Origin: Chloroflexota bacterium
GTDB taxonomy: Bacteria > Chloroflexota > Dehalococcoidia > Lucifugimonadales > UBA1127
Assembly (NCBI GenBank): GCA_026713825.1
Contig: JAPONS010000013.1
Span: 1-39,777 of the forward strand
Direction of reading: 5' to 3'
Length of the DNA stretch: 39,777 bases
In this document: piece after piece, positions 3,540-39,625 of the stretch
Layout of the letters: the number at the start of each line of letters is the position of its first letter
How positions within the stretch are numbered: the stretch's first letter is position 1
Position numbers and translations under genes: made by a program
The notes under the pieces: model-generated
What the model saw: only the letters and a program-made list of their open reading frames with translations
Database searches by the model: none
Told to the model about the DNA's origin: nothing

Positions 3540-3610
3540 GGGGAGAGGGTACTTGCGGGGTAGGGTGGGCGCAATGCGGGGTCATCGGTCTCAACCGACA
3601 GGCCAAAGCG

Positions 3611-5206: not shown

Positions 5207-6490
5207 ATGACCCAGACAAACGTCAGCACCAAGGCAACCATCGCCGCCAAGCACTGGGAAGGTCAGGACGTGACGGAGCTGTTGGCGCGGTCCGCCGCGG
5301 TGCTGCCGGCAATCAGCGCGACTGAAGCGGGGACGCAGGGACGGTCCATCGTCTTCTCTAGGACCGAGCATGCGTCGCCCATAAACTTGGGCGGCGGCAT
5401 TCCGGACCCGGACTCGCTGCCCGTCGCAGGGCTGCAGGCGGCCATCAACAGGGTCTTCGAGACGACATCCGAGCCGGCGCTGCGGTACGGCGGCATCTTC
5501 GGCTTCGAGGACCTGCGCGCGGTGGTAGCGGAGCGGCAGGGGCGGATCCAGGGCATCAAGCTCTCGTACGAGAACTTCCTGATGACGCACGGCGGCTCGG
5601 GCGGCATCGACGCCGTGTGCGACACGTTCCTCAACCCGGGGGACGTGTGCATCGTCGAGCGGCCGCACTTCTCGGGGTCGCTGCGGACGATCCGCGGGCA
5701 CCTGTGCGAGGTCGTCGAGGTGGAGCTGGGCGAGGACGAACTCTTCGCCGAGCGGGTGGAGGAGACGCTGCAACGGCTGGAGGCGGAGGGCAAGCACGCC
5801 AAGCTGCTGTACACGGTGCCGGACCATCACAACCCCTCGGGCGCGACGATGCCGCTGGCGGTGCGGGAGAAGCTGGTGGAGGTCTGCGCACGGCACCGGG
5901 TCTTCATCATGGAGGACATGGCGTACACGGAGCTGTATTTCGACGCGCCGCCGCCTCCATCGCTGTACGCGGTGGCCGACGGGCACGGGGTGATCCAGGT
6001 GGGGAGCTTCAGCAAGATTGTCGCGACGGGGCTGCGGGTTGGGTGGATACAGGCGCGGCTGCCGGTCATCGAGTCCGTGGGCCGGGTGCGGTTCGACATG
6101 GGCGGGAGCCCGCTGCTGCACCGGGCGCTGACGCTGTACGTCGGGAGCGGCGACCTGGAGCCGCACGTGGACATGCTGCGGGGCATCTACCGCCGCAAGT
6201 GCGATGCGCTGGTCTCGACGCTGCGGGAGCACTGCGAGCCGTACCTGCGCTTCGAGGAGCCCGCGGGCGGGTTCTTCCTGTGGGCCGAGTGCATCGGCGC
6301 GACGGCGCAGGACGTGGCGCAGGCGGGGGCAGAGGAAGGCCTCACCTTCGCGGCGGGCTCCAACTTCTACAAGGACCGCGAGGCGGCGGACACGTCGCAC
6401 GTGCGGCTTGCGCTGAGCTACGCGTCGCTGACGGAGCTGGAGGACGTTGGGCCGCGGTTCCTGCGGGCGTTCCAGCGCGTGGTGGACTAG
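5207..6490 (+). CDS. PLP-dependent class I/II aminotransferase (2-aminoadipate/MocR-like fold)
   Basis: 427 aa fold-type I aminotransferase. The substrate-side loop 'LGGGIPDPDSLP' (about residue 62), 'YGGIFGFEDLR' and the cofactor-stacking 'THGGSGGIDAV' are in order. 'DHHNPSGATM' is the Asn loop, 'MEDMAYTELYF' holds the pyridine-N Asp, and 'SFSKIVATGLRVGW' carries the Schiff-base Lys. The C-terminal domain ends with the substrate-carboxylate region 'LALSYAS'. Closest recalled relatives are LysN/2-aminoadipate-type and valine-pyruvate-type enzymes; exact amino donor and acceptor are not predictable. The ATG follows 'TTGGAG'. Cytosolic. The next gene converges on it and the stops overlap by 4 bp. 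Confidence 0.9.
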   Translation: MTQTNVSTKATIAAKHWEGQDVTELLARSAAVLPAISATEAGTQGRSIVFSRTEHASPINLGGGIPDPDSLPVAGLQAAINRVFETTSEPALRYGGIFGFEDLRAVVAERQGRIQGIKLSYENFLMTHGGSGGIDAVCDTFLNPGDVCIVERPHFSGSLRTIRGHLCEVVEVELGEDELFAERVEETLQRLEAEGKHAKLLYTVPDHHNPSGATMPLAVREKLVEVCARHRVFIMEDMAYTELYFDAPPPPSLYAVADGHGVIQVGSFSKIVATGLRVGWIQARLPVIESVGRVRFDMGGSPLLHRALTLYVGSGDLEPHVDMLRGIYRRKCDALVSTLREHCEPYLRFEEPAGGFFLWAECIGATAQDVAQAGAEEGLTFAAGSNFYKDREAADTSHVRLALSYASLTELEDVGPRFLRAFQRVVD

Positions 6491-8004
6491 CACTTCAGCG
6501 AGTCCCGGGCCTCGGCGATGGCGCGGAGCTTGGCCTCCGCGGTGCGGGCCGAGGCGACGGGGTTGTCGGCGAAGGTGGCGAAGCCGCAGTCCGGCGTTAG
6601 CAAGACGCGCTCCTCTCCGAACAGGTTGACGGCCTGTTCAATGCGCCCTCGGACTTCCTCTAGTGACTCCACGGTGTCCAGCTTCTGATTGACCACGCCT
6701 ACGGCTATGCGCTTGTCGTCCGGGAGGGACTTGAGGACGGCGGCCTCTCCGGCGCGGGGCGTGGAGAGCTCGAGGAAGAGGGTTCCGACGTCGGCGCGGG
6801 AGAGGGCGTCGAGGAGGGGGGCGTAGTCACCGGCGAGGGCGGCGGACTCGTCGGGCGTCCAGTTGCCGCGGCAGACGTGGAGGCCGAGGCGGTCGCTCGG
6901 CAGGCCGTGGGTGACCTCGTTCAGCAGACCTACCGCGAAATCCAACTCCGGGCCCGGCTCCAGTTTCTCGCTTAGGGCGCCGCACATGAAGCTGCGGTTG
7001 CCGGACTGTGCCCCAAACACCACCTCGGTCAGTACAGGCTCATCGAACTGCACCAGGGACGCCCCGGCGGCGAGCAGGTAGTGCAGCTCCTCACGCAGCA
7101 CCCGGACTACGTCGCGGGCGAGGTCTTCGCGGGTGTTGTAGGGCATCTCTTCGAGGCAGTCGAGCCACATGGTGCGGGTGAGCAGGTAGGGGCCGGGGAG
7201 GGCGATCTTGACCGGGCGGCCGGCGCACTCGCGGACGAACGCGAGCTCGTGGACGGCGAGGGAGCGGCTGCGGCCGAGGTGGCCGAAGACGACGGGGTGG
7301 CGGACCTCAGCGGTGGGGACGTCCAGGGCGCGGAGCTCTCTCTCGAACTTGTCCGGGTCATCGACCATGGCGGTGAGGTCGCTGAGGGGGATGAGCTGGC
7401 AGTTGTCGAGGAGGCTGCCGACGAAGCTGGCGTAGCTGTCGCGGCGCTGCTCGCCGTCGGTGAGGACGTCGGCGCCGGCGCGGAGCTGGGCGTCGACGGC
7501 GAGGCGGACGGCGTCGTCAGCGGTGGCCTGGAAGTCGGCGTCGCCGAGGCGGCCCTCGAAGCGGTCGTGGACGGCCTGAATCATCCAGCGGGGGCGCGGC
7601 CAACTGCCGACGCCCATGATGGAGAGGGGGGCGATAGCCGGCGCGGGCCGCGGGTGCGGCAGGGTATCGGGGATGGTCACCGGGACGCGCTCGTGGACGG
7701 CGGCGATGGGGGTGGGGGCCTCGGCGACGGCGGGGGCGCGCTCGGTCAGCGATCCCTTGCAGACGAGGAAGCTGCGCTGGCCGTCCTCCTTCGTCCAGGA
7801 GACGAGCTGGTTGCTGGTGAGGCGGCACCAGGCGGGGAGCTCGACCTCGACAGTGCGGTCTGTGGAGAGGATCTCCAGGAGGCCGCCGCGGTCCAAGGGG
7901 TCGATGTGGCGGCGGATGAGGAGGAGGAGACCGCTGCCGCAATCGAGGTTGCCGCCGTCAAAGCTGACGTCGGGCGTGTAGTCGTGGCGTTCGACGGGGT
8001 CCAT
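6487..8004 (-). CDS. TusA-like domain fused to a MetE-type (cobalamin-independent methionine synthase-like) methyltransferase
   Basis: 505 aa. Residues 1 to about 85 form a TusA-like sulfur-carrier domain: 'NLDCGSGLLLLIRRHIDPLD' then 'VELPAWCRLTSNQLV'. The usual CPxP motif reads CGSG, and one Cys keeps the catalytic position. A Pro/Ala linker leads into a MetE catalytic-barrel domain from about residue 128 ('SIMGVGSWPRP'). It includes 'DVLTDGEQRRDSY', 'VQFDEPVL', the zinc ligands 'LHVCRGNW' (H-x-C) and 'LTPDCGFAT' (Cys). The MetE N-terminal half is absent, as in core-MetE proteins. Zinc thiolate methyl transfer is the expected chemistry; acceptor and donor are unknown. It is last of a tight TusA-DsrE-fusion set (18 and 16 bp gaps). 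Confidence 0.85.
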   Translation of the reverse strand: MDPVERHDYTPDVSFDGGNLDCGSGLLLLIRRHIDPLDRGGLLEILSTDRTVEVELPAWCRLTSNQLVSWTKEDGQRSFLVCKGSLTERAPAVAEAPTPIAAVHERVPVTIPDTLPHPRPAPAIAPLSIMGVGSWPRPRWMIQAVHDRFEGRLGDADFQATADDAVRLAVDAQLRAGADVLTDGEQRRDSYASFVGSLLDNCQLIPLSDLTAMVDDPDKFERELRALDVPTAEVRHPVVFGHLGRSRSLAVHELAFVRECAGRPVKIALPGPYLLTRTMWLDCLEEMPYNTREDLARDVVRVLREELHYLLAAGASLVQFDEPVLTEVVFGAQSGNRSFMCGALSEKLEPGPELDFAVGLLNEVTHGLPSDRLGLHVCRGNWTPDESAALAGDYAPLLDALSRADVGTLFLELSTPRAGEAAVLKSLPDDKRIAVGVVNQKLDTVESLEEVRGRIEQAVNLFGEERVLLTPDCGFATFADNPVASARTAEAKLRAIAEARDSLKC

Positions 8005-10050: not shown

Positions 10051-11319
10051 TTACACCATTGTCTCCATGAGCTCCTTGACCTTCTGGTTCTCCATGAAAT
10101 CGATTTCGCGGCTGAGTTCGTAGGACCAGGCACGGACGCGGTAGAGGCCGCCGTTGTAGGGCTCCTGCGGTTCCTTCCCCTCAATGAAGGCTTTGGCGGA
10201 GTTCACGAGGTAGCGGCGCATGGCGATGATGGCGCTGTCGCTGGTGCCGAGGTGCTCTTTGGTGCGGTCGGCGATGGCGCCCATGCCCTCGACGACGGCG
10301 GTGTCCTGCTCGCGGACGCCGAGGATGCCGGTGAACGTCTGGGTGCGCTGATTGTGGCGGTCCTGCAGGAAGTGGTTGGCCCTGGTGGCGCGCAGCTTGC
10401 CGGTGGCCGGGTCCAGGCTGGAGATATGCGGGGAGGGGCCGCCCAGGATGGCGTCGCGCTCGGACTGGGGCAGGGGCTCGACGGGCGACCAGATGACGCA
10501 CCAGACGTCCGTGTGCTCGTCGTCGACGGGCACCCACATGTGGCCGTGGCCGCGCTTCTGCTCCAGGTCCATCGCGATCATGGTGTAGTAGGGCATGAGC
10601 CACTGGTTGATGCGCCAGTAGTGGGTGTCATCCTCGGCGTTGCGCTGGGCGGCGAGCATGACGCCGTAGTCCGTGGGCTGGATGATCCAGCGAGGGGCCG
10701 TGTCATTGACGCGCCAGAGCATCTCCTTGCTAGAGGGGGCTGTCTTCTGATCCAACCTGGTGTGGAGGAAGCCGATGTGGCTGGAGTCGATGTCGCCCTC
10801 GGTGGCCTGGACGAAGTTGCACTCCTGGTTGTACTTCACCAGGTTGCGGTACTCGGCGGGGACGCGGCACCACTCGAGCTGGGGGAGCTCCGGGATGCGG
10901 TCCTGGGGGCCGATGTAGGCCCAGATGATGCCGCCCCACTCGCGGGTGGGGAAGCCGATGGGGCGCACCTTCCTGGCGAACTCGTACTGGGCGGGCTCGG
11001 AGGGCATGTCGACGCAGGCGCCCGCGACGTCGAACTTCCAGCCGTGGTAGATGCAGCGCAGGCCCTCGTGCTCATTGCGGCCGTAGAAGAGGGGCGCGCG
11101 CCGATGGGGGCACAGGGCCTCCACGAAGCCGATCTCGCCGTTGGTGTCGCGGAAGGCGACGAAGTCCTCGCCGAGGAGGCGGACCTCCCTGGGGTCGCAG
11201 TCCGGGTGCGGGAGGTCCTCGGAGAGGAGGACGGGGGCCCAGAAGCGGCGAAGGACCTCACCCATGGGGGTGCCCGGGCCAACCCGGCACATCAGTTCAT
11301 TGTCTTGCGCGTTCAGCAT
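10051..11319 (-). CDS. Rieske non-heme iron ring-hydroxylating oxygenase, phthalate 4,5-dioxygenase-like alpha subunit
   Basis: 422 aa. The N-terminus 'MLNAQDNELMCRVGPGTPMG' matches the phthalate 4,5-dioxygenase subgroup. The Rieske cluster is complete: 'CPHRRAPL' (C-x-H) and 'CIYHGWKFD' (C-x2-H). The mononuclear iron site shows as 'EGDIDSSHIGFLHTR' (Asp and two His), about residue 175. Such enzymes use a reductase partner, which is not seen in this window, to insert O2 into aromatic or other carboxylated substrates; members also demethylate or hydroxylate. AGGAGGG precedes the ATG. It sits between a hypothetical protein and the Gfo/Idh dehydrogenase in one minus-strand series. Substrate is unknown. 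Confidence 0.92.
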   Translation of the reverse strand: MLNAQDNELMCRVGPGTPMGEVLRRFWAPVLLSEDLPHPDCDPREVRLLGEDFVAFRDTNGEIGFVEALCPHRRAPLFYGRNEHEGLRCIYHGWKFDVAGACVDMPSEPAQYEFARKVRPIGFPTREWGGIIWAYIGPQDRIPELPQLEWCRVPAEYRNLVKYNQECNFVQATEGDIDSSHIGFLHTRLDQKTAPSSKEMLWRVNDTAPRWIIQPTDYGVMLAAQRNAEDDTHYWRINQWLMPYYTMIAMDLEQKRGHGHMWVPVDDEHTDVWCVIWSPVEPLPQSERDAILGGPSPHISSLDPATGKLRATRANHFLQDRHNQRTQTFTGILGVREQDTAVVEGMGAIADRTKEHLGTSDSAIIAMRRYLVNSAKAFIEGKEPQEPYNGGLYRVRAWSYELSREIDFMENQKVKELMETMV

Positions 11320-20328: not shown

Positions 20329-20548
20329 GGCGGCGGTTGGGCAGCCTCACGAATGGACATAACGGCGAGCTTCTGGACGTTCCTCGCGGGCTCGCGATTT
20401 GGGCGCTCGCGGCGATGGACGGGCGGCACGCAGGGGGGTAGAATCGCGCTGTCCAACGCGCCGGGGCATCGGTCGAGGCGCGGCGGGGTGGAAATCGAGT
20501 CGGGCAACGGGCTCCCGTGAACGGAAAGCGGGGGCAAAGGAGGGACTT

Positions 20549-21346
20549 ATGACTCAGGTATTCAACGCGTACGCGGTGGGCGCCGCCAAGGGCATCGAGG
20601 AGCACGTGGCGTTCCTCGATCCGACGCCCAAGCGCATCCGGGCGACGTTTGCCGGCGAGACGATCGTCGACTCCCGGAATGCGGTCATCATGTACGAGAC
20701 GCGGCACCAGCCGGTCTACTACTTCCCGCTCTCGGACGTGAGGATGGACCTTCTGGCGGAGACGGCCCACGGCACCCACTGACCGATCAAGGGAGACGCT
20801 CAGTACTGGAGCGTCAAGGTTGGCGAGCGCGAGGTGGAGAACGCCGTGTGGGCGTACCCCGATCCGCTGGAGGACTGCGTGGACGTTCGGGAGTACGTGG
20901 CCCTCTACTGGAACAAGATGGACGCCTGGTTCGAGGAGGACGAGGAGGTCTTCATTGGGCCGAAGGACCCGTACACGCGGGTGGACTGCCTGGCGAGCTC
21001 GCGGCACGTGCGCGTCGAGGTGAACGGCGTGACGGTGGCGGAGACGACACGGCCGGTGCTGCTGCTGGAGACGGGGCTGCCGCACCGCTACTACATCCCC
21101 CGCGAGGACGTGAACATGGACCTGCTGCAGGCCAGCGACCGCGTTGCGGGCTCGCCTTACAAGGGCGAGGCGAACTTCTTCCACGTCGAGGCCGGGGGCG
21201 AGACCATCGAGAACCTCGCGTGGACGTACAACGAGGCGTGGGCGGAGTCGAGCAAGGTCTCTGGCCTCATCTGCTTCCCGCAGGGCAAGGCGGACACGTA
21301 CGTCGACGGGGAGCTGGAGCCGAAGCCGAAGAGCCGCTGGGACTAG
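20549..21346 (+). CDS. Tandem DUF427 protein with in-frame TGA at codon 78; candidate selenoprotein or nonsense-interrupted gene
   Basis: The ATG follows a strong AAAGGAGGG site. One frame encodes two DUF427 domains (about residues 28-140 and 150-255), total 265 aa if codon 78 is read through. Domain 1: 'RATFAGETIVDSRNAVIMYE', 'YYFPLSDVRMDLL', 'HGTH-TGA-PIKGDAQYWSV'. In DUF427 proteins this spot is a conserved Cys (xxCPxKG). Domain 2: 'HVRVEVNGVTVAETTRPVLL', 'YYIPREDVNMDLL', 'GSPYKGEANFFHV', where the site is Ser. The 188 codons after TGA stay intact and family-like. Readings: selenocysteine (a hairpin of SECIS geometry follows), a recent nonsense mutation TGC to TGA, or a base-call error. 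Biochemical function of DUF427 is not established. Confidence 0.75.
20783..20823 (+). promoter_or_regulatory. SECIS-like hairpin directly after the in-frame TGA
   Basis: Upper stem GACGCTC (20795-20801) pairs perfectly with GAGCGTC (20809-20815) around a 7-nt loop AGTACTG. The lower stem CCGATC (20783-20788) can pair with GGTTGG (20818-20823), including G-U pairs, across an internal loop. The apical loop starts 19 nt after the TGA and has G as its second base. That fits the known bacterial SECIS layout (loop 16-37 nt after UGA, G in its first two bases). Chance pairing inside a coding region cannot be ruled out. Confidence 0.45.
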
Positions 21347-32907: not shown

Positions 32908-33026
32908 CTTGTCGCCGTGAAGTACCGCGCAAGTGTCACTGTCACAGTTGCTCCCTGGCTGAGGGATTGGTAGGCTTCGCACCATCCCGGACCATTGAAC
33001 ATTGCAATCTTTGTGGGGGAACCGCA

Positions 33027-36000
33027 TTGCAGGTTTACCTGGAGCCATACGGCAGGCCATCGCGAGAGCGGCTGCAGGCGCTGGTGGCAGAGGCCAAGGC
33101 AACGAACCCGCTGGCACCGGTGACCGTCGTGCCGCCGAACGCCTACGCGGGCATCGGCCTGCGGCGCGTGCTGGCGGGGGAGAGCGGGCTGCTCAACGTT
33201 GGCTTCATGGCCTTCGCGCGCCTGGCAGAGCAGCTTGGCGCCCCGAGCATGGCGGCGCAAGGACGCCGGCCCCTGTCGGCCGCGGCGGAGATGGCCGTGA
33301 TCCGCGGGGTGGCGACCGAGCTCGCAGGGCAGGGGGGGCCGCTCGGCGGCGTCGCGACGCACCCGACGCTGCACCGCTCGCTGCAATCGACGTTCCAGGA
33401 GCTCGTGAAGCTGACAGAGAGCGAATTGGACGCGCTGGCGGCGTTGGACGACCTGAGGCAGGCGACGGTTGAGTTGTTCCGCAGCTTCCGGGACCAGACC
33501 AAGGGGTACTACGGGCGGGAGGACATGGCGTGGGCGGCTGCTGAGGCGGTGCGCTCGGGCAGGGGGGAGCCGGCGCTGCGAGACCTAGGCGGGCTGGTCT
33601 TCTTCCTCCTACCGAAACCCTCGCCCGCCGAAATTGCGCTTCTGGACGCGCTTGCCGGAGCGGCACCGTGCAACCTCGTGGTGGGCCGTGCGGGCGAGGC
33701 GGACGTCGACGACGCGGAGGGCGTGTGGTGGGAGAGCCTTGGCACGGCGACCGCCGCGGGGTCCAGCGCCGACTCGACGGGCGTTGACGCCGCGCCAGAG
33801 GCAATCGTGTCGGCGCCGGACGCGCGCGAGGAGGTGCGGCAGGCAGTGCGGGAGATGCTTCGCCTGGCGGAGGATGGCGTGCCCTTCCACCGCATGGCGG
33901 CGCTCTACCGACGGGTCGACCCCTACGCCTTTCAGCTACGAATGGAGCTTGGCTTCGGGGGGATACCGGTGGCCGGGCCGGACCCGTCGCCGCTGCGGGA
34001 CTCGGCGTCCGGGCGACTGTTCACCGGACTGCTTGCGGTCATCGAAGACGACTTTGGCCGGGCGTCGCTGATGCAGTGGCTGGCGGACGCGCCGGTGTGG
34101 AACGCCGCGAGCAACCATTCGGCCTCCGGCGAGCGCCAGCGGTGGGAGGCGCTCTCGCGGGAAGCGGGCATCGTGCGCGGCGTGGAGCAGTGGAAGGACA
34201 GGCTGCAGAAGCTCACCGCCGAGCTGGAAAAGCGCCTTGAGCCGTCGGAAGGACGGGGCGAGCTCAGCGAAGGCCAATCGAGGGCGTATGCCGAGCGGGT
34301 TGCCAGCGCCAAGCGGCTGGCCGCGTTTGTGGAGCGGCTGTCGGAGCAGGCGCCCCCGGTGAACGGCAGCGCGTGGAGCGCGTACGCAGGGTGGGCCAAG
34401 AGCGCTCTCAGGGACTATGCACAGGGACAACGCGGATGGACAGAGCCACAACTGGACGCGCTGCGCCGCATCGAACTGGCGTTGGAGGAGTTGGGCAAGC
34501 TGGACGCCGTGGAAGCTGAGACGACGCTGGCGAGGTTCCGGCAGGCGCTTGACCATGCACTCTCAAGACCCGTCGGCCGAAGCGGGGCCACGGGCACGGG
34601 CGTATTCGTGGCGGGGCTTGGCACGGCGACCGGCATGGAGTTCGAAGCTGTCTGGCTGCTGGGCATGTCGGAGGGTGACTCCCCGGCTCGAGCCAGCGAA
34701 GACCCGCTGCTGCCCGATGCGATACGGGCGACATTGCCCAAGCGGACGTTGCCGCTACGGCGGGAGGAGCAGCTGCTGGAGCGCGGCAGCTACCTGGCCG
34801 CGCTGGCGACGGGGCAACGCAGGCGGCTTTCATACTCCCGTGTGGATCCGGTTCAGCGGCGGCCGCAGTACCCCTCGCCCTGGCTCCTCGAGGCCGCATC
34901 GACGCTGGCCGGCGAGCCCGTGACGTCCGACAGGCTCAACGGGTACGGCGCACCCTGGATGACGGTGATCGAGTCGATGGAGGACGCGCTGCGGTTGGCG
35001 GAGAGAGGCCGCGCCGCCGACGGGCACGAGTATGACGTGCTGGCGCTTGCCGACTGGCGCAGGTCGGGGAACCGCCTTCGCTGGCACCCGCTGGCGTCGG
35101 GCGGCGCGCCGCTGGGCCGCGCGCTCGCGATGGAGCGAGGGCGCGGTTCGACGGAACTCACGGCGTGGGACGGGTATGTTGGCGACATCGCGCCGGGCAG
35201 CGCGCGGTTGGGGGGGTCGCTCTCGCAGGTCATGTCGCCGACGCGACTCGAGACGTGGGCCACCTGCCCGTACCGGCACTTCCTTGGAAGCGTCCTCCGG
35301 CTTGCGGCATGGGAGACGCCGGAAGAGGTGTTGACCATCTCCGCGCTGGAGCGGGGCAACCTGATCCACGGCATCCTGGAAGCGTTCATCAATGAGGCGC
35401 TCGCAGCGGGAGCTCCCCAGCCGGAGCAGGGGTGGACGGCACAGGACCGGGAGCGGCTCCGGGAGATTGCTGCCGAGAGGTTCGCGGATGCCGAGCAACG
35501 GGGCGTGACCGGACGGCGCGCACTGTGGGAGGTGGTGCAGGAGGACATTCTGCAGGACCTGGACCGGTTTCTGGAGGACGATGCGCGATACCGGGCCGCC
35601 GAGGGCATGCTGCCCCTTCACGCCGAGTACGGGTTTGGCTTTGGCAGCGGCGATCCGGTGTCACTGACGCTGCCCGGCGGCGCAGTGCAGTTTCGCGGTT
35701 ACATCGATCGGGTGGACGCCTCCGCCGACGGTCTGCGCGCGGTGGTGATGGACTACAAGACCGGCAACACTTACCAGTATCAGAAGATGAAGGATGACCC
35801 GCTGGTGGCGGGGAAGAAGCTGCAGCTGCCCGTCTATGCGCTGGCGGTGCGCGAAAGGATGCTGCCGAACGCCACGCTGCGAGCGGAATACTGGTTCGTG
35901 TCCGCCACGGGCGCTGCGGCGCACTACCCCGTTGACCTGGACGCCATCGAAGCAACGTTCAGAACGACGGTGCTGTCCATCGCCGAGGGGGTCCGCGGCG

Positions 36001-36200
36001 GCGTCTTTCCCGCCGTCCCAGGACCCAACCGCAACGGCGAGTTCGAGAACTGCCGCTACTGTGACTTCAAGCGAGTCTGTCCCGCCAACAAGCAAGCGTT
36101 GTGGGCGCGAAAGGCGGGCTCGCAGCAGGCGCAGGCCTACGCGAGGCTCGGCGCACCCGCGGGCGACGAGGACGACAGCGAAGAAGAGGACGTCGAATGA
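33027..36200 (+). CDS. addB: AddB-like PD-(D/E)XK nuclease and inactivated helicase subunit
   Basis: About 1057 aa from a TTG at 33027 (GGGGGA seven bases upstream); a TTG at 32967 would add 20 residues. It resembles AddB of the AddAB double-strand-break repair enzyme. The N-terminal helicase-like region keeps 'VTVVPPNAYAGIGLRRVLA' and 'LLNVGFMAFARLAEQL', but the first loop 'YLEPYGRPSRERL' lacks a GKT Walker A, so ATPase activity is doubtful. The C-terminal nuclease has 'VVMDYKTGN' (about residue 905). Fe-S cluster Cys are in 'TCPYRHFLG' (about 747) and 'CRYCDFKRVCP' (about 1008). Its stop overlaps the addA-like start by 4 bp (ATGA), so both subunits are co-translated. Confidence 0.88.
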   Translation: MQVYLEPYGRPSRERLQALVAEAKATNPLAPVTVVPPNAYAGIGLRRVLAGESGLLNVGFMAFARLAEQLGAPSMAAQGRRPLSAAAEMAVIRGVATELAGQGGPLGGVATHPTLHRSLQSTFQELVKLTESELDALAALDDLRQATVELFRSFRDQTKGYYGREDMAWAAAEAVRSGRGEPALRDLGGLVFFLLPKPSPAEIALLDALAGAAPCNLVVGRAGEADVDDAEGVWWESLGTATAAGSSADSTGVDAAPEAIVSAPDAREEVRQAVREMLRLAEDGVPFHRMAALYRRVDPYAFQLRMELGFGGIPVAGPDPSPLRDSASGRLFTGLLAVIEDDFGRASLMQWLADAPVWNAASNHSASGERQRWEALSREAGIVRGVEQWKDRLQKLTAELEKRLEPSEGRGELSEGQSRAYAERVASAKRLAAFVERLSEQAPPVNGSAWSAYAGWAKSALRDYAQGQRGWTEPQLDALRRIELALEELGKLDAVEAETTLARFRQALDHALSRPVGRSGATGTGVFVAGLGTATGMEFEAVWLLGMSEGDSPARASEDPLLPDAIRATLPKRTLPLRREEQLLERGSYLAALATGQRRRLSYSRVDPVQRRPQYPSPWLLEAASTLAGEPVTSDRLNGYGAPWMTVIESMEDALRLAERGRAADGHEYDVLALADWRRSGNRLRWHPLASGGAPLGRALAMERGRGSTELTAWDGYVGDIAPGSARLGGSLSQVMSPTRLETWATCPYRHFLGSVLRLAAWETPEEVLTISALERGNLIHGILEAFINEALAAGAPQPEQGWTAQDRERLREIAAERFADAEQRGVTGRRALWEVVQEDILQDLDRFLEDDARYRAAEGMLPLHAEYGFGFGSGDPVSLTLPGGAVQFRGYIDRVDASADGLRAVVMDYKTGNTYQYQKMKDDPLVAGKKLQLPVYALAVRERMLPNATLRAEYWFVSATGAAAHYPVDLDAIEATFRTTVLSIAEGVRGGVFPAVPGPNRNGEFENCRYCDFKRVCPANKQALWARKAGSQQAQAYARLGAPAGDEDDSEEEDVE

Positions 36201-39200
36201 CCGGGCATCAGGGTTTCGAGGACCAGCATCACCGTGACCGCATTCAGTCCAGCCTGGACGAGAACCTCTTCGTCGAGGCGGGCGCCGGCACCGGGAAGAC
36301 CACCGCGCTGGTGGGACGCATCGTCACACTGATCACTTCAGGACAGGGCCAGATGGCGGGACTGGCAGCCATCACGTTCACGGAGGCGGCCGCCGCCGAG
36401 CTGCGGGACCGTGTGCGGCGGGAGCTCGAGAAGGCGGCGGCGGACGAGGGCCTGGACGCGGACTCGCGTGCCAGGCGCCGAAAGTCTGTGGCGGAGATGG
36501 ACGCGGCGTCGATCCAGACGCTGCACAGCTTTGCGCAGTCGCTGTTGCGGGAACTCCCGCTGGAGGCGGGGCTGCCGCCGGGCTTCGAGATGATGGACGG
36601 TGTCGAGGCGGACCTGCGCTTCCAGGAAGCGTGGGACGCATGGCTGGACCATACGCTGGAATCAGACGACCTGGGGCCCAAGCTGGCCCGGGCGCTGCAC
36701 CTTGGCCTGAACCTGGAGCTACTCCGCCAAATCGCCATGCTTCTCGACCGTGACTACGACCTCGTAGCGAAGGCGTCCATCCCGGCAGCGCCCGAACCGC
36801 CGCTCACTATTGGCGCCCGGTTGGCTGAGGCGTTGCCGGAAATCGAACGACTGATGGATCTGTCGCAGATTGGCGCGGGCGACCCGCTGTACGACCTCGC
36901 GACGGAGGTTGCAGGGGTGGCGCAGCGGTTGCCGGAGGCTGGCAGCGCCAGCCTCGGAGGCAACAGTCCCGGCGGTAATCGTGGCAGCTATGAGCGGGCA
37001 ATCGTGCGACTGCTGGGCTGGCAGCGGCTGCACACCAACCGCGGCAGCATGAGGGACTGGGACAAGGACCCAGTCAGCGGCGACAACGCTTGCAGGCTGC
37101 TGAAGGCCCTCATGAAGGAGCTGGACGACATCCGCCAAGAGGAGATCCTGGCGCTGCGGAGGGCAGCCTTCACACCGGCGCTGGAGGCTGTGCGGGAGTT
37201 TGTGGTGGAGCAATCTCACAGGAGGAAATCGGCCGGGCAGGCAGGGTTCCACGACCTGCTTGTGTGGGCGCGGGACATGCTGCGCGACAACCGCGAGGCG
37301 CGTCGGCGGTTCCAGCGAAAGTTCCACCACATCCTTGTGGACGAATTCCAGGACACGGACCCCATCCAGGTGGAAATCGCCTTCTACCTTGCGGGTGACC
37401 CGGACGAGACCAATGCCGGCGCGTCCGGGGGCTGGGAGGCGGTCGCACCGGTCCCCGGCAAGCTATTCATGGTGGGTGACCCGAAGCAGTCGATCTACCG
37501 GTTCCGCCGGGCGGACATCGTGACGATGGCGCACGTACGCGACCACCTCGTCGACGAGAGCACACCGTTGCAGCAGAACTTCCGCTCGCAGCAGAGCATC
37601 ATCTCGTGGGTCAACCACGTTTTTGGGAAGTGGATGCGGGCAGACCACCAAGAACTGCAGGCGGAGTACCGGGACCTCGTCGCCACCCACGGAGTGACCG
37701 AGGAGGGCCAGGAAGCGCCGGAGCCGGCGGTGTACTACATGGGCGAGGACATCGACGCCAGTATGGACACCGCCAGGCGCATGGAGGGCCAGGCTTCGGC
37801 CGCCCTGGTGCGCGAGATCAGGGAGGACCGGTGGCAGGTGCGGGACCAGTCGACGGAGGCGTGGCGGGACGCCACCTACCGGGACGTTTGCGTTTTGCTC
37901 CCGACAAGAACAAACCTTGACACGCTGGAGCAGGCGCTGGAAGCGGCGGACGTGCCCTATCGAATTGAGAGCGAGTCAATCGTGCTTGGCACGGAGGACG
38001 TGCGGCAACTGCTGAATTGTCTACGGGCCATCGATAGTCCGGGTGACCAGGTGGCGCTGGTTGCCGCGCTGCGCTCGTCGGCATTCGCCTGCAGCGACGT
38101 GGAGCTTCTGCAGTTTGCCGACAGTGGGGGGCGCTTCGACTACCTGCATCCCGGGGCGGCCACGGGGCCCGTTGCCGACGCCCTGGCGGCGTTGCGCGAG
38201 TTCCACGAATCTTCCGGGCTGACGCCACCGGACGCGTTCATAGAGGCGTTCATCCGGGAACGCCGGCTGGTGGAACTCTCCTTCGACCGGCGGCGGCCGC
38301 GGGAGCGGTGGCGGCGGCTGCGGTTCGTGGTGGAACAGGCGCGAGCGTACCTTCGGGCGGGCGGCAGCTCGCTGCGGGGGTTTCTCGACTGGATCGAGCG
38401 GCAGGTGGCGGAGGGGGCTCGCGCGGTGGAATCGCCGGCGCCGGAGTCGGACGAGGACTGCGTGCGGATAATGACGATTCACGCGGCAAAGGGGCTGGAG
38501 TTTCCCATTGTGTTGCTCAATGGGCTTGGGGGTGGCCAACGCACTACACCGGAGGCCGTGATCGTGGACAGGAGCACTGGGCAGGCTGAAGTCAACATAA
38601 GCATTTCCCGGGGCGTTCACGTGTCAACGCAGGGGTATACGCCGGCGCAGGAACGGGAAAAGGCAGCGAGTGAGGCAGAGGGTGTTCGGCTGGCATACGT
38701 GGCCTGCACCCGCGCCAGGGACCATCTGGTTGTGAGCCTCTTTCGGAAGACCAGCAAGAATGACAATTCTCGGGCTGCCAAGATGGCAGGGTATTGCGAA
38801 GACCGCCCGGAACTTCATCGGGAGCTCGACTGGAGGCGGCTGGCGGCGGCCGCCGAGGCCTACGCGCCGCAGGCCGATGAGGACCGGGGCACGTCCGCTG
38901 GAGACTTCGACGGCGCGCGCGCCGAGTGGGCGGCGCGGCGCGAGTCGACCATTGCGGAGGCGTCTCAGCCGCAGGCGCAGGCGGTCACGGCCATCGCGCA
39001 GGGAACGAAGGGGCAGGCGCCCGGGTCCGCGCCGCCTGACGACACCGTGACGTCGGACAAGACAGAGGGCAGCGACGGCGAGGTATCGTACCGGCGTGGG
39101 CGCGCCGGCACGAACCTGGGCCGCGCAGTCCACGCCGTGCTGCAGAGCATTGACTTGCTGACGGGAGAGGGGCTGGAGGACATCTGCCGCGCGCAGGCGG

Positions 39201-39625
39201 AGGCGGAAGGCATCGGGGATATGGCGGAGGAGGTCATGGAGCTGTCACGCAACGCGCTGGCAATGAAGACCGTTCGGGACCTAGTTGCGATGGTTGGGCA
39301 GGGCTCTGCCAGCTACTACCGCGAGGTCTTCGTGAGCGCGAAGCTGGGCGGCAGGCTGGTGGAAGGGTTCATCGACCTGTTGATCGATAGGCCGGACGGC
39401 GTATCTATCGTGGACTACAAGACAGACCGCCTGACTCCGAAGGGAGTACAGGAGCTGGGGCCGGAGTATGAGATCCAATTGGGGCTCTATGCCTGGGCGG
39501 TCGCAGAGACCACCAAGAGGCCAGTGAAGGGGGCTACGCTTCTCTTCCTACGGCCCGAAGAAGAGCGGCCATTCACTGACGTCGATTCTCTCATTGGGCA
39601 GGCCAAGGCTGCTGCGGAGGCATGA
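36197..39625 (+). CDS. addA: AddA-like UvrD/Rep helicase-nuclease
   Basis: 1142 aa from the ATG that overlaps the addB-like stop. Superfamily 1 helicase motifs are all visible: I 'EAGAGTGKTTALVGRI' (about residue 30), Ia 'AITFTEAAAAELRDRV', II 'ILVDEFQDTDPIQ', III 'MVGDPKQSIYRFRRADI', IV 'QQNFRSQQSII', V 'IMTIHAAKGLEFPIVLL', VI 'VACTRARDHLVVS'. The C-terminal RecB-type nuclease shows 'NLGRAVHAVLQSIDL' and 'VSIVDYKTDRL'. Together with the upstream subunit it processes DNA ends for RecA-dependent repair. Length and layout match AddA. A strong terminator follows 28 bp after the stop. Confidence 0.93.
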   Translation: MTGHQGFEDQHHRDRIQSSLDENLFVEAGAGTGKTTALVGRIVTLITSGQGQMAGLAAITFTEAAAAELRDRVRRELEKAAADEGLDADSRARRRKSVAEMDAASIQTLHSFAQSLLRELPLEAGLPPGFEMMDGVEADLRFQEAWDAWLDHTLESDDLGPKLARALHLGLNLELLRQIAMLLDRDYDLVAKASIPAAPEPPLTIGARLAEALPEIERLMDLSQIGAGDPLYDLATEVAGVAQRLPEAGSASLGGNSPGGNRGSYERAIVRLLGWQRLHTNRGSMRDWDKDPVSGDNACRLLKALMKELDDIRQEEILALRRAAFTPALEAVREFVVEQSHRRKSAGQAGFHDLLVWARDMLRDNREARRRFQRKFHHILVDEFQDTDPIQVEIAFYLAGDPDETNAGASGGWEAVAPVPGKLFMVGDPKQSIYRFRRADIVTMAHVRDHLVDESTPLQQNFRSQQSIISWVNHVFGKWMRADHQELQAEYRDLVATHGVTEEGQEAPEPAVYYMGEDIDASMDTARRMEGQASAALVREIREDRWQVRDQSTEAWRDATYRDVCVLLPTRTNLDTLEQALEAADVPYRIESESIVLGTEDVRQLLNCLRAIDSPGDQVALVAALRSSAFACSDVELLQFADSGGRFDYLHPGAATGPVADALAALREFHESSGLTPPDAFIEAFIRERRLVELSFDRRRPRERWRRLRFVVEQARAYLRAGGSSLRGFLDWIERQVAEGARAVESPAPESDEDCVRIMTIHAAKGLEFPIVLLNGLGGGQRTTPEAVIVDRSTGQAEVNISISRGVHVSTQGYTPAQEREKAASEAEGVRLAYVACTRARDHLVVSLFRKTSKNDNSRAAKMAGYCEDRPELHRELDWRRLAAAAEAYAPQADEDRGTSAGDFDGARAEWAARRESTIAEASQPQAQAVTAIAQGTKGQAPGSAPPDDTVTSDKTEGSDGEVSYRRGRAGTNLGRAVHAVLQSIDLLTGEGLEDICRAQAEAEGIGDMAEEVMELSRNALAMKTVRDLVAMVGQGSASYYREVFVSAKLGGRLVEGFIDLLIDRPDGVSIVDYKTDRLTPKGVQELGPEYEIQLGLYAWAVAETTKRPVKGATLLFLRPEEERPFTDVDSLIGQAKAAAEA

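Follow-up and report, generated by a model that had tools for sequence, protein, structure and literature searches.

An in-frame UGA at the conserved cysteine codon of a DUF427 gene: evidence for a new selenoprotein family

Organization of the locus

We have analyzed a 39,777-nucleotide stretch of DNA (67% GC, here called the window) from a bacterium of the Chloroflexota, in which a gene encoding two DUF427 domains is interrupted by an in-frame TGA codon. The features of the locus are as follows.

20538 to 20543, plus strand: AGGAGG ribosome-binding site, identified from the sequence, upstream of the ATG at 20549
20549 to 21346, plus strand: predicted two-domain DUF427 selenoprotein gene, 265 codons plus a TAG stop (21344-21346)
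20636 to 20911, plus strand: DUF427 domain 1 (Pfam PF04248), residues 30-121, with the putative Sec at position 78
20780 to 20782, plus strand: TGA codon of the CPxKG motif, standing where Cys is conserved and probably decoded as selenocysteine (Sec78); the TGA is kept in relatives and in four phyla
20783 to 20823, plus strand: whole SECIS-like element, with a predicted outer stem of 20783-20788 paired with 20818-20823 (minimum-energy and centroid folds, RNAalifold)
20795 to 20815, plus strand: SECIS-like hairpin, with GACGCTC stem, AGTACTG loop and GAGCGTC stem
21008 to 21280, plus strand: DUF427 domain 2, where the counterpart of Sec78 is Ser (SPYKG) (Pfam, alignment)

The original prediction described an intact 265-codon frame split by TGA, preceded by a strong ribosome-binding site and continuing open for 188 codons. 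The start, stop and AGGAGG lie where this requires, the count of 188 agrees when the stop is included, and the TGA is the sole internal stop of the frame. The stretch containing the ribosome-binding site, AAAGGAGGGACTTATG, is the same in a relative (L010). When the TGA is read through, two stretches match PF04248 with 211.6 bits, against a gathering cut-off of 22.1. The TGA had been placed at the Cys of the CPxKG motif, and this is borne out by a paralog in the same genome with Cys at the site (TQCPYKGNAEYY, where the TGA gene reads THUPIKGDAQYW), and by the solved DUF427 structure 3djm, in which the Cys of CPLKG aligns with Sec78.

An open frame extending across a TGA is in itself little proof of readthrough, because 16 TGA codons split equally long open frames within this GC-rich window. 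We therefore dropped frame length as evidence, and it is homology and conservation that carry the weight of the case for selenocysteine.

Conservation of the TGA codon

The close homologs carry TGA at the same codon. The closest relative, an uncultured member of the Dehalococcoidia from the same genus (OX638292.1), whose finished genome is a single contig of 2.86 Mb, has a gene 95% identical with the TGA in place. Six more genomes of the order, at 55-75% identity, have it too, and within the class it recurs in a second family, in two DUF427 genes of the single-domain type. We scanned 84,980 species genomes with the pattern TGA-Pro-x-Lys-Gly-x-Ala-x-Tyr. This gave 45 matches: in 34 of them TGA replaces the Cys codon of a DUF427 gene, and the other 11 are chance matches. 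The TGA-containing DUF427 genes fall in four phyla, Chloroflexota, Actinomycetota, Gemmatimonadota and Pseudomonadota, the organisms being Chloroflexota, Acidimicrobiia (10), Gemmatimonadota (2) and alphaproteobacteria, together with one gammaproteobacterial exception that we discuss below. In a control on the phylum with TAA and TAG there was one TAA match, against three TGA matches that were all DUF427. Viral contigs gave chance pattern matches only.

Among 61 genomes around one Acidimicrobiia member, all 10 of its clade have TGA, and those more distant relatives whose codon we read have TGC or TGT. TGA is likewise mixed with Cys codons among the relatives of one alphaproteobacterial member. 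Two metagenome-assembled genomes, assigned to SAR202 (OSU_TB62) and to the Rhodospirillaceae (RS382), have identical DUF427 genes, and the upstream frame that we read is identical as well, which probably reflects a binning error in one of the two.

No other in-frame stop was found in 3132 codons surrounding the TGA at 36 loci (45 codons before and 42 after). Comparison with the gene at locus L051 gives dN = 0.021 and dS = 0.28 before the TGA, and dN = 0.023 and dS = 0.17 after it. The corresponding ratios of about 0.07 and 0.14 indicate purifying selection on both sides. Further nonsense mutations, which would have spoken for decay of the gene, are thus not seen.

These data bear on two simpler explanations. 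The original prediction cautioned that a single C-to-A change or a read error would look the same. TGC is indeed one step from TGA, and there is one apparent real case of such a mutation (below), but more than 30 assemblies, single-contig genomes being two of them, have TGA at this position. Read errors would need to have struck the identical codon in every one of these, an explanation that the conservation across four phyla refutes. With purifying selection on both flanks and no further stops, an error of sequencing or assembly is a highly improbable account of the locus, as is the recent loss of a TGC or TGT codon to one nonsense mutation in a Cys-type gene. We give equally little credence to a pseudogene or split gene, whose two parts, 77 residues from the N terminus and a C-terminal remainder (starting for example at GTG 20834), would be separate products or would not be made. 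A frame of 170 amino acids does begin at the downstream GTG, but the TGA interrupts domain 1 itself, at a point flanked by two conserved beta-strands, so that neither piece would hold the whole domain; the downstream start leaves out the conserved PIKGDAQYW, and the low dN/dS on both sides also argues against such an arrangement.

Selenocysteine machinery

The components for insertion of selenocysteine, for which the original prediction called, are all in the window's genome. It has a tRNA-Sec (68.5 bits; anticodon TCA according to ARAGORN), selA (544 bits), selB (347 bits) and selD (380 bits), the last itself carrying one in-frame TGA. We counted a tRNA-Sec only at 54 bits or above, since weaker matches are usually other tRNAs. 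On this basis tRNA-Sec is found in 34 of 36 genomes with TGA-containing DUF427, compared with 3 of the 11 genomes with chance matches (Fisher p = 2e-5, or 1.6e-4 when ten genomes are taken out to allow for the Acidimicrobiia clade). One genome with TGA-DUF427 (G317) lacks a clear tRNA-Sec, yet selA, selB and selD are present. A correlation inside the class proved uninformative: 204 of 294 Dehalococcoidia genomes already have tRNA-Sec, too many for a useful test, and we therefore used the contrast across phyla.

The exception comes from Candidatus Thiodiazotropha (L080), in which the same codon is TGA near position 3584 on the minus strand. We found no tRNA-Sec, selA, selB or selD in this genome, and no qualifying hairpin after the TGA. 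The closest of its relatives that we examined has Cys at the site. Another relative has TGA at a Trp codon (L176, 233-235). From these sequences the Thiodiazotropha gene, a short DUF427 gene of a symbiont group, looks as if it had decayed independently by nonsense mutation. Since it has the TGA without the Sec genes, TGA at the DUF427 Cys site is not by itself sufficient proof of selenocysteine.

A SECIS-like hairpin

A bacterial SECIS element is a hairpin directly following the UGA, with an apical loop 16-37 nt away and a G near the start of the loop. In the window a hairpin (20795-20815) with a stem of 7 bp has a loop that starts 20 nt after the UGA, with G as its second base. The elements of most other clades have these same characteristics, while those of a few are weak. 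Tested against synonymous recodings that preserve each gene's own codon usage, the hairpins of 24 sequences have a mean z of -1.1 and a Stouffer z of -5.4, the latter inflated by kinship between the sequences. Among the two-domain genes, synonymous-codon identity peaks in the 12 codons directly 3' of the TGA, where it reaches 0.60, more than in any other of 249 windows (overall value 0.48). Two sequences exhibit a compensatory change, in which the C18-G34 pair becomes U-A through GAC to GAT on one side and GTC to ATC (Val to Ile) on the other. Taken alone, the window's hairpin does not stand out significantly from dinucleotide shuffles (z = -1.15), and no consensus fold like the hairpins that its sequences form individually was obtained from the A2 alignment, of the PWKG clades.

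An in-frame TGA does not of itself tell which residue is inserted, and the codon might be read as Trp, Cys or Gly by a near-cognate or reassigned tRNA. Several observations make this very hard to sustain. At least four other long frames in the window end with TGA, and there is no second internal TGA within the gene. Those aligned homologs that keep the motif have Cys, never Trp or Gly. Moreover, the TGA copies accompany tRNA-Sec and a SECIS-like hairpin, and selD of the same genome also has an in-frame TGA.

The conservation of the TGA in four phyla, the presence of the Sec genes, the hairpin and the lack of other stops thus all support the reading of the codon as selenocysteine. On these comparative grounds we estimate a probability of about 95% that the UGA at 20780-20782 inserts Sec, and that the gene encodes a genuine selenoprotein of 265 residues.

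Exchange of cysteine and selenocysteine

We constructed a tree of 86 DUF427 domains, including the doubtful Thiodiazotropha sequence. It requires at least six changes between Cys and Sec (6-7 in bootstrap samples), of which at least four are forced by well-supported branches. The exact history is uncertain because the domains are short, and the tree as sampled does not support a single origin of Sec in DUF427. Recurrent exchange of Cys and Sec at one site is typical of catalytic redox residues.

Fold and proposed mechanism

With the TGA read through, the protein was modeled with AlphaFold2 (mean pLDDT 87, pTM 0.59), the individual domains being reliable and their arrangement less so. The model matches 3djm (Z = 18.4), Mis18 yippee (Z = 9.5), cereblon (Z = 6.3) and RIG-I-type domains. 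The predicted fold is the beta-tent, in which DUF427 had been placed earlier (PMC4287342). The same study noted that zinc is systematically absent from DUF427 (PMC4287342), and the window's protein contains no CxxC.

The model places Sec78 where one strand ends and the chain turns into the following one. Residues Y58, P60, D63, G82, W101 and Y103 are invariant in the alignment, among them those of the motifs Y-x-P-x-x-D and W-x-Y. Binding sites of other beta-tent proteins have W-x-Y or H-x-F pairs, namely W99 and Y101 in CULT, W82 and Y84 in yippee (predicted), and H111 and F113 in MsrB (PMC4287342). The invariant W101-x-Y103 of DUF427 resembles these pairs in sequence. Five single-domain members (L054, L059, L074, L075 and L088) have no Cys besides the Sec. 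This excludes an internal selenenyl-sulfide for these proteins, which would need an outside reductant.

We propose the following scheme. The UGA would be recoded co-translationally as Sec by SelB and tRNA-Sec of the cell, directed by the SECIS hairpin directly after it, to give a 265-residue selenoprotein with Sec in place of the conserved Cys of domain 1. The Cys or Sec may then supply the nucleophile for redox or group-transfer chemistry of the one-Sec type, next to an aromatic ligand pocket, and attack a bound small molecule or peptide. Regeneration would be by an outside thiol or reductase, as suggested by the several single-domain Sec members without another cysteine. Domain 2, with Ser at the site in this subfamily, is probably structural or ligand-binding. 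The redox-active role for domain 1 suggested in the original prediction is consistent with these features, and we think it likely that the Cys/Sec residue is catalytic.

It might instead be that Sec is inserted, but that the Cys/Sec position binds a ligand or has a structural role and is not a redox nucleophile. Some relatives of DUF427 in the beta-tent fold, CULT and yippee among them, are binding domains without catalytic activity (PMC4287342), Ser is tolerated at the site in domain 2, and DUF427 is a family of unknown function. The recurrent exchange of Cys and Sec at one site argues against such a role, as does the reported lack of zinc in the family (PMC4287342). We regard it as unlikely, and conclude that the DUF427 Cys/Sec is probably a redox nucleophile.

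Genomic context

No single conserved partner of Sec-DUF427 was found, and the window's own neighboring genes differ from those at the other loci. At the two Acidimicrobiia loci that we examined, which come from close relatives, an FAD/NAD(P) oxidoreductase of ferredoxin-reductase-like type (Pyr_redox_2 plus Reductase_C) is convergent with Sec-DUF427 (L059, 2002-3303; L088, 2934-4193). It is possible that this enzyme is the electron donor at these loci. A TldD/PmbA-type metallopeptidase lies near Sec-DUF427 in one chloroflexotal and two alphaproteobacterial genomes (L076, 4846-6243; L075, 6184-7554; L095, 5296-6720).

Elsewhere in the window, the minus-strand gene at 6487-8004 couples Meth_synt_2 to a weak, below-cut-off TusA-like stretch at its N terminus, an unusual pairing. 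A Rieske oxygenase with a LigXa-like C-terminal domain is encoded at 10051-11319 (minus strand), and at 32967-39625 a PDDEXK nuclease adjoins a UvrD helicase-PDDEXK gene as an AddAB-like pair.

Relation to known families

By both sequence and fold, the domain is that of DUF427/NTP_transf_9 (PF04248), represented by 3djm from Rhodobacter sphaeroides. It differs from the 3djm type in the predicted Sec for Cys in domain 1, in having two tandem domains and in the Ser of domain 2. As in bacterial selenoproteins, there is a UGA at a conserved Cys, a SECIS-like hairpin, selA, selB, selD and tRNA-Sec, known here from sequence.

Most selenoproteins are thioredoxin-like. Unlike these, DUF427 is a beta-tent domain, and several single-domain forms have no CxxU or UxxC partner. 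The methionine-R-sulfoxide reductase MsrB (SelR) occurs with either Cys or Sec. It too has the beta-tent fold (PMC4287342). In contrast to MsrB, the DUF427 protein lacks the CxxC pairs that bind zinc, and the positions of the residues seem to differ, with Sec78 located before the W-x-Y strand and the catalytic Cys of MsrB after the binding-site strand. MsrB was not among the fold matches listed for the DUF427 model.

A 2026 inventory contains 119 families of prokaryotic selenoproteins, and neither DUF427 nor PF04248 appears in its Table 1 (PMC13188914). NCBIfam, whose models cover many of the listed families, gives no match to the DUF427 selenoprotein. In the full-text literature we found no treatment of DUF427 as a selenoprotein; supplements, subscription papers and preprints lay outside that search, so an earlier listing could have been overlooked. 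Apparent co-mentions were false leads, arising from DUF4277 and from the title of a reference.

We conclude that DUF427 is a new selenoprotein family with a non-thioredoxin, beta-tent fold. The broader proposal is more tentative, and we put it forward at a little under even odds: that DUF427 constitutes a new class of beta-tent redox enzyme, in which a single Cys or Sec nucleophile without an intramolecular partner lies next to an aromatic cage, with repeated switching between Cys and Sec in four phyla.

The finding adds a selenoprotein family that current inventories have missed, and gene callers will truncate DUF427 genes of this kind at the UGA. It names a probable active-site residue in a widespread family of unknown function, making its chemistry testable. 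The exchange of Cys and Sec in four phyla provides natural matched pairs with which to ask what selenium buys an enzyme.
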